Source: Calothrix anomala FACHB-343
GTDB lineage: Bacteria; Cyanobacteriota; Cyanobacteriia; Cyanobacteriales; Nostocaceae
NCBI RefSeq assembly: GCF_014696435.1
Contig: NZ_JACJQG010000079.1
Location: 1-44,004 of the forward strand
DNA length: 44,004 bases
Direction: 5' to 3'
A program made the translations under genes and the position numbers. Below, one piece after another: positions 9,236-27,847 of this stretch. How positions within the stretch are numbered: position 1 is the stretch's first letter; each line of letters starts with the position of its first letter. Below the pieces are notes generated by a model, which was given only the letters and a program-made list of their open reading frames with translations, searched no databases and was not told the DNA's origin.

Positions 9236-9264
9236 TGTACAGACGCGATGAATCGCGTCTCTGA
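9236..9264. repeat. GACGCGATGAATCGCGTC hairpin repeat
   Basis: One copy of a dispersed hairpin of the form TTGTACAGACGCGAT-loop-ATCGCGTCTCT, followed by a CAAATGA unit. Other copies are at 6866, 17881, 27409, 32580, 39635 and 42228. The central bases differ between copies (GAA, TAA or TCA) while the arms are kept. Confidence 0.75.
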
Positions 9265-26022: not shown

Positions 26023-26303
26023 GCATATAATCCAATACGGTTCAGTTAAGAATAATTGTAGGTTGGGTAGAGCGATAGCGAAACCCAACATTAAAGCGGC
26101 TTTGTTGGGTTTCGTTCCTCAACCCAACCTACATCTTTTCAGGTTTTTGACGCTAACTGAACCGTATTGGCATATAATCCAATACGGTTCAGTTAAGAAT
26201 AATTGTAGGTTGGGTAGAGCGATAGCGAAACCCAACATTAAAGCGGCTTTGTTGGGTTTCGTTCCTCAACCCAACCTACATCTTTTCAGGTTTTTGACGC
26301 TAA
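26023..26303. repeat. Tandem duplication of a 147-bp hairpin element
   Basis: Two copies (26023-26169 and 26170-26303 onward) appear identical as far as the second continues. Each carries terminal arms CCAATACGGTTCAGTTA and TAACTGAACCGTATTGG and an inner hairpin (26058-26132 and 26205-26279) built on GTAGGTTGGGT/ACCCAACCTAC. The period is a multiple of three, which leaves an apparent 119-codon open frame through both copies; it is not a gene. The hairpin is related to 5816-5894. Confidence 0.85.
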
Positions 26304-26511: not shown

Positions 26512-27348
26512 ATGCAGCGTGAATTTGCCAGTCGGGACGAATTAATCGCTTATCTCAAAGAACAATTCCCCCAAGCCGCAGAACGCGACGATAGTGTCAG
26601 CGAGATAGTTGGGGGCAGAAAAGCCGCCCAAACAGCCTTAAAAAAGGTTAAACCAGCCTTATATGCAAAAACACGCAATTTTTTAACAGGTGATGTCACT
26701 AAACTTTCACCATATATCCGTTATGGAGTTTTGAGCCTGCGAGAAATCCGCGATTACGTCTTACATAAAGTCCAAAACCGCGATGATGCAACAAAACTAA
26801 TTAACGAATTAGGTTGGCGGGATTACTGGCAAAGATTATATGCCAAACTAGGAAATAACATTTGGCAAGACCAAGAAGAATATAAAACAGGCTACACCAT
26901 AGCAGAATACGCCCCAGAATTACCCCAAGATATCAAAGATGGGAATACAGGCTTAGTTTGCATCGATAAATTTAGTCAACAATTACGCGAAACTGGCTAT
27001 TTACATAACCATAGCCGCATGTGGTTAGCCGCCTATATTGTCCATTGGCGGCGGATTCGCTGGCAAGCAGGTGCAAAATGGTTTTTACAACATTTATTAG
27101 ACGGCGATCCTGCCAGTAATAATATGTCATGGCAATGGGTAGCCAGCACTTTCAGTCATAAACCTTATTTTTTCAACCGCGAGAATTTAGAAAAATACAC
27201 AAAAAGTGTGTATTGTCAACAATGTCCTCTCTACGGTAATTGTGATTTTGAAGGTAGCTACGAACAATTAGAAAAACGCCTATTTCCCAGAGGCGAATTT
27301 ACCAAAAAACCCAACAGTCAAAGCTGGCAAAAAGGTAAGAAGAAATAG
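26512..27348 (+). CDS. Photolyase/cryptochrome FAD half with Fe-S-type cysteines
   Basis: A 278-residue protein equal to only the C-terminal, FAD-binding half of a photolyase. Family landmarks: TKLSPYIRYGVLS (63-75, flavin phosphate site), ELGWRDYW (99-106; Glu99 and Trp102 match the lesion-contact residues of CPD photolyases), HNHSRM (165-170), Trp184, DGDPASNNMSWQW (197-209; the Asn pair faces the flavin, and the tryptophans belong to the electron-transfer chain). Four cysteines, Cys150, Cys235, Cys238 and Cys244, lie where [4Fe-4S] ligands lie in CryB/PhrB-type enzymes. The N-terminal antenna domain is absent, and a matching domain is encoded by the next gene. Likely role: light-driven DNA repair or blue-light sensing. 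Activity is inference. Confidence 0.85.
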   Translation: MQREFASRDELIAYLKEQFPQAAERDDSVSEIVGGRKAAQTALKKVKPALYAKTRNFLTGDVTKLSPYIRYGVLSLREIRDYVLHKVQNRDDATKLINELGWRDYWQRLYAKLGNNIWQDQEEYKTGYTIAEYAPELPQDIKDGNTGLVCIDKFSQQLRETGYLHNHSRMWLAAYIVHWRRIRWQAGAKWFLQHLLDGDPASNNMSWQWVASTFSHKPYFFNRENLEKYTKSVYCQQCPLYGNCDFEGSYEQLEKRLFPRGEFTKKPNSQSWQKGKKK

Positions 27349-27350
27349 GA

Positions 27351-27437
27351 ATTGGGCATTGGGCATGGGGCATTGGGCATAGTGAGAATAACAAATGATA
27401 AATAATAATTGTACAGACGCGATTAATCGCGTCTCTA
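27351..27437. repeat. CCCATTG STRR and GACGCGAT hairpin at a gene start
   Basis: GGGCATTGGGCATGGGG-type units (27354-27380) are followed by TGTACAGACGCGATTAATCGCGTCTCT (27410-27436). The hairpin begins about 12 bases inside the open frame of the antenna-half gene, so it is translated as CTDAINRVS. Confidence 0.8.
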
Positions 27438-27847
27438 ACCCAATAATTTGGATACATGGCGACTGTTTGAGTCCGGAAAACCCGGCTTTACAAGAATACC
27501 CAAATGCACCTGCAATTTGGGTTTGGGATGATACTTTGATAGAAGAATGGCAACTGAGTCTCAAGCGAATAACGTTTATTTACGAGTGCTTGCTAGAGTT
27601 ACCTGTAGAAATTCGTCGCGGTAATGTAGCAAAAGAAATTTTAGCTTTTGCTCAAGAAAACAAGGCTGATTTAGTAGTAACAACTGATAGCCCTAGCCCG
27701 CGTTTTCATAATATCTGTGATGACATTGAGCGTTCTTTAAAATTAGAAGTGTTTGAAGTAGAACCGTTTTTTGATTACGACGGATATATTGACCTCAAGC
27801 GCTTCTCTCGCTATTGGAAAGTAGCAGAAAAGTATGTTTTTGACTAA
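27395..27847 (+). CDS. Photolyase alpha/beta-domain-like protein (antenna half)
   Basis: A 150-residue protein resembling the N-terminal alpha/beta domain of photolyases. From residue 16 it reads PIIWIHGDCLSPENPALQ (compare the family pattern of a first strand followed by LRLxDNPAL), then AIWVWDDTLIEEW, a long helix, VEIRRGNVAKEILAFAQE (strand and helix matching the RxGxxxEVL region) and ADLVVTTDSPSPRF. No FAD domain follows. It lies 46 bases after the FAD half on the same strand, so the two probably assemble into one enzyme. Codons 6-14 come from a dispersed GACGCGATTAATCGCGTC hairpin just after the ATG; the original start may be lost, and no other in-frame ATG is close. Confidence 0.7.
   Translation: MINNNCTDAINRVSNPIIWIHGDCLSPENPALQEYPNAPAIWVWDDTLIEEWQLSLKRITFIYECLLELPVEIRRGNVAKEILAFAQENKADLVVTTDSPSPRFHNICDDIERSLKLEVFEVEPFFDYDGYIDLKRFSRYWKVAEKYVFD

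Follow-up and report, generated by a model that had tools for sequence, protein, structure and literature searches.

The gene pair phr4 and phr5 of Calothrix anomala FACHB-343 is best explained as the Nostocales representative of the phr4/phr5 photolyase already in print and probably encodes a two-subunit, light-driven DNA repair enzyme in which Phr5 docks on Phr4. Phr4 would be the FAD-binding catalytic subunit, probably carrying a [4Fe-4S] cluster, and Phr5 would be a free-standing antenna-type alpha/beta domain, folded like the N-terminal domain that ordinary photolyases carry and docking on Phr4 in trans. Flavin photochemistry would drive the repair of CPD rather than (6-4) lesions, as suggested by Asn166 and Met170, and energy would be transferred from an antenna chromophore of Phr5, unless Phr5 is purely structural. 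The two-subunit reading is well supported, because the genes co-occur without being adjacent and because FAD-first fusions are found in two lineages. The pair is already described in kind; the new elements are evidence in favour of an enzyme that needs both proteins and a challenge, open to testing, to the published lesion assignment.

The window (the whole analysed stretch of 44,004 nt, contig NZ_JACJQG010000079.1) contained phr4 at 26512..27348 (forward strand, 278 aa) and phr5 at 27395..27847 (forward strand), separated by an intergenic spacer at 27349..27394 (no strand assigned) with heptamer-like repeats (GGGCAT units). Phr4 matched FAD_binding_7 in a Pfam search (E 4.7e-25). The part of Phr5 homologous to its relatives spanned approximately residues 13–150. 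The preliminary description had claimed a split pair with the gene for the C-terminal half before that for the N-terminal half, and this was confirmed, as an ORF for the FAD domain was followed by one for the alpha/beta domain. The 150-residue protein did match the photolyase alpha/beta fold, as had been proposed, but its Pfam score lay below the curated cut-off. The fold match was closest to the N-terminal part of the FeS-BCP proteins PhrB/CryB; in hhalign comparisons, which are modest profile alignments, the probability was 69 against class I and 25 against FeS-BCP. PF04244 (DPRP) matched neither Phr4 nor Phr5 in the Pfam search. Compared with near relatives, synonymous change far exceeded amino-acid change in both genes (dN/dS per site against near relative L001: phr4 0.015/0.111, phr5 0.016/0.118). 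A structure prediction of Phr4 had a pLDDT of 48.7, probably owing to low alignment diversity, and was set aside. The 44 solved photolyase/cryptochrome sequences matching Phr4 were each at least 420 residues long, versus 278 for Phr4. By PF03441, PF00875 or PF04244 matches, the sole second photolyase-family gene of the Calothrix genome was of class I type (contig C102, 17213–18616, L081/L129; 479 aa). Class I CPD photolyases consist of one chain with the antenna domain first, and the Calothrix pair fits neither feature.

Haney et al. (2022; PMC9426592) described phr4 and phr5 as neighbouring ORFs in every marine Synechococcus strain and in half of six Cyanobium strains, and attributed an identical phr complement to Nostoc punctiforme. 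The accessible portions of that paper also describe the fused phr6 and the four cysteines, and raise the possibility of a heterodimer or a +1 frameshift, so that the novelty implied in the preliminary description was lost. Common to both accounts are a FAD gene followed by an antenna-domain gene, the four cysteines and related fusions. The junction differs, with seven base pairs in marine Synechococcus/Cyanobium versus 46 bp with repeats in Calothrix, and the N-terminus of Calothrix Phr5 lies in repeat DNA, unlike that of the marine Synechococcus/Cyanobium Phr5. The seven-bp junction is not defining for Nostocales, since it was reported for marine strains and the same complement was given for Nostoc punctiforme. 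Disruption of phr4 in marine Synechococcus lowered UV-C survival 20–30 fold, with an effect on UV-B survival that was not measurable, and phr4/phr5 in E. coli protected against UV-C and very little against UV-B (PMC9426592). The two-gene pair was not met in the accessible portions of PMC9649867, PMC9498864, PMC9178010 and PMC4619345.

Both genes were present together in 81 of 386 cyanobacterial genomes, versus 82 with Phr4 (score >180 bits) and 83 with Phr5 (E up to 1e-5), which is the co-conservation expected of a pair; these counts are phylogenetically non-independent and rest on a limited number of candidates scored per genome. Phr4 matches at E up to 1e-20 occurred in 163 genomes, 81 of which were left out as other photolyases with lower Phr4 scores (at most 115 bits among the matches listed). 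The exceptions to co-occurrence were G060, with a 451-aa single chain, G376, in which Phr5 started at a contig edge and Phr4 was not found, and G419 (L115), in which Phr5 was interrupted by stops and Phr4 was not found. Joint decay of the pair is likely in G419; neither gene was found in the close relative G137. Viral contigs contained no relatives of Phr4 or Phr5.

The genes lay on the same strand and at most 2 kb apart in 58 of the 81 pair-bearing genomes, with overlapping genes in one (G273), and were non-adjacent in 21. Twelve of the non-adjacent pairs were located on one contig with the genes at least 25 kb apart, and nine were spread over two contigs, where the distances to the contig ends imply a separation of at least 6 kb. 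In G410 each gene lay at a contig end (approximately 190 and 180 nt away), so the two are probably neighbours separated by a gap in the assembly. Phr5 was found within the fetched flank of 46 of 80 named loci. All 34 genomes whose fetched locus had none contained a Phr5 match elsewhere; some of these loci end early at contig ends, which leaves linkage possible in part of the 34. A stop inside the Phr4 match was flagged in six cases, and in four of the five that were read it was the natural end of the protein, all four belonging to non-adjacent pairs. In the linked pair of G076 the Phr4 stop fell at residue 251 of 277, past the last cysteine. The Phr5 match of G004 contained a TGA.

Programmed frameshifting could join both ORFs into one FAD-first, Phr6-like chain, a possibility that Haney et al. 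raised for the marine Synechococcus strains. In its favour are the known Phr6 fusions and the unvarying junction of the marine strains (PMC9426592), as well as 12 of the 46 loci with flanking Phr5, where the ATG of Phr5 and the TGA of Phr4 share ATGA, an overlap of 4 nt in another frame. Even so, such a fusion seems highly improbable, as 46 nt with repeats separate the genes in the window and the genes are non-adjacent in more than a quarter of the pair-bearing genomes (21 of 81). Overlaps of this ATGA type are usually read as a sign that two proteins are translationally coupled.

FAD-first single frames were present in two cyanobacterial genomes (G404 and G304). A plasmid search gave Phr5 matches in 4 of 72,556 records (E up to 0.01), all from Deinococcus; three were fused and FAD-first (AJ005, wulumuqiensis, psychrotolerans), and the QL22 plasmid carried split genes with a 4-nt overlap. 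In the tree, the cyanobacterial fusions grouped with split picocyanobacterial Phr4 (98/91) inside a picocyanobacterial clade (100/98), the Deinococcus fusions were placed apart from them (100/100), and the split Deinococcus protein fell outside, on a long branch. This topology suggests at least two separate fusion events, with the deeper forks unsure because of long branches. That the fused proteins keep the order of the split genes argues strongly, at the sequence level, for joint action of Phr4 and Phr5. The two-subunit assembly envisaged at the outset thus draws on co-occurrence without adjacency and on fusions in two lineages; the physical complex itself we infer.

In a further reading, which we judge quite unlikely, Phr4 would be a short photolyase that needs no partner, and Phr5 would serve independently as a regulator or a Usp-like stress protein. 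Some proteins of the SPL class reportedly have four cysteines, and one is said to have CPD repair (Xu et al. 2021). SPL is the name of a FAD-only protein class that includes SephrC of Synechococcus elongatus; Phr4 may work alone because this class is described without an alpha/beta domain (PMC9178010, PMC9649867). The accessible portions of the two papers mention no separate alpha/beta partner, in contrast to Phr5 here.

Other single-chain, FAD-first relatives, encoded in G060 (L106) and on a Persicobacter plasmid (L128), lacked the cysteines. Their C-termini resembled the FSRYW helix of Phr5 and matched the Phr5 profile weakly (probability approximately 11–13). For the C-terminal domains of Phr7/NewPHL the probability against the Phr5 profile was 0.1, from a three-row alignment, so that sequence homology of these domains with Phr5 gained no support. 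The Persicobacter and Niveispirillum stretches had zero annotated features. NewPHL/Phr7 proteins have the FAD domain first, as in the order of the Calothrix pair, but form a single chain that lacks the Fe-S cysteines, as Emmerich et al. are said to have described for NewPHL in 2020, whereas the Calothrix genes are split. Five rows, which we take, partly from PMC9426592, to be NewPHL/Phr7, formed a separate clade (100/100) with Phr4 outside.

The cysteines of Phr4 were assigned from sequence and conservation and are encoded on the forward strand at 26959..26961 (Cys150) and 27214..27243 (Cys235–Cys244, C-x2-C-x5-C). C150, C235, C238 and C244 were invariant in all 81 sequences of a Phr4 set that consisted of the best 80 of 157 relatives and the window sequence. 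They aligned with the cysteines of cyanobacterial FeS-BCP, the last spacing being x5 in the window versus x12 in FeS-BCP, and the motif singled out in the preliminary description was borne out. In an alignment of diverse relatives and outgroups, all four cysteines occurred in 22 of 30 rows, namely the cyanobacterial and Deinococcus Phr4-type rows. The eight rows without the full set were G263 (L105), G060 (L106), two Persicobacter frames (L128), two Phr7-like rows, Ruegeria and one classical photolyase. Judged from conservation and alignment at the sequence level, Phr4 probably holds a [4Fe-4S] cluster, as had been proposed. On the other side stands G263, whose divergent Phr4/Phr5 pair is adjacent but has none of the four cysteines, so that the Fe-S cluster would be dispensable for the two-gene arrangement.

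Haney et al. predicted a (6-4) photolyase from the Fe-S cysteines and the UV-C versus UV-B phenotypes (PMC9426592). A two-subunit (6-4) photolyase would agree with cysteines placed as in PhrB, with the UV-C bias of these phenotypes, and with the genome profile search, in which PF04244 had no match in the Calothrix anomala genome or in 25 of the 41 sampled pair-bearing genomes of its family. We regard this assignment as doubtful because of the active site. At the columns of PhrB His366 and Leu370, all 81 Phr4 sequences had N166 and M170. FeS-BCP rows had H and L at these columns (4/4) and class-I-like rows N and M (4/4); the other 30 rows, of diverse origin, all had N166, and 27 of them had M170, the remaining three having Leu. 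Phr4 E99 aligned with the Glu of class-I-like proteins in 26 of 30 diverse rows (Gln in four), and the FeS-BCP rows had no Glu at this column, where the alignment is gapped. In PhrB, H366N and L370M were built as CPD-photolyase counterparts; (6-4) repair was absent in H366N, and repair was reduced but retained in L370M (PMC4619345). Given the Asn166/Met170 active site and the PhrB H366N result, CPD is favoured over (6-4) as the putative lesion of Phr4/Phr5; the UV-C bias of the phenotypes and the rows with Gln at E99 or Leu at M170 speak against this reading.

The likeness to PhrB/CryB drawn in the preliminary description thus stood for the cysteine positions, as far as sequence can tell, and gave way at the active site, where the residues are of CPD type (Asn/Met versus His366/Leu370). 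PhrB/CryB are furthermore single chains with the opposite domain order and PF04244, none of which applies to the Calothrix pair. A PF04244 match was present besides the pair in 51 of the 81 pair-bearing genomes, so a replacement of PF04244 photolyases by the pair is not clearly supported, which also counts against the (6-4) assignment. In the genomes where PF04244 was absent, (6-4) lesions would have to be repaired in some other way if the pair repairs CPD.

Two questions of the 2022 paper are addressed by these results, with a heterodimer favoured over a frameshift fusion and CPD over (6-4). We give even chances to the stronger claim of an obligately two-subunit photolyase, in which an antenna supplied in trans from any genomic location acts on a CPD-specific Fe-S subunit. 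If this is true, DNA repair would include a modular light-harvesting subunit, and the Fe-S cluster would be decoupled from (6-4) specificity. Mixing the two purified proteins would be a way to test both their assembly and the antenna transfer, provided that Phr5 truly acts as an antenna in trans.

The start of phr5 coincides with repeated DNA. The dispersed palindrome AGACGCGATTAATCGCGTCT at 27415..27434 (no strand assigned) sits where relatives have the Phr5 start codon, and in place of their ATG the Phr5 start would be upstream (27395) or a non-standard codon. The palindrome had 131 exact places in the genome versus 0 for the reversed control. Six copies with up to 2 mismatches were located in the window, at 9241, 17917, 27415, 32586, 39641 and 42232. 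Upstream of phr4 there was an exact 134-nt direct duplication (26023–26156 and 26170–26303, spacing 147), the duplicated unit being an intergenic element with inverted arms.
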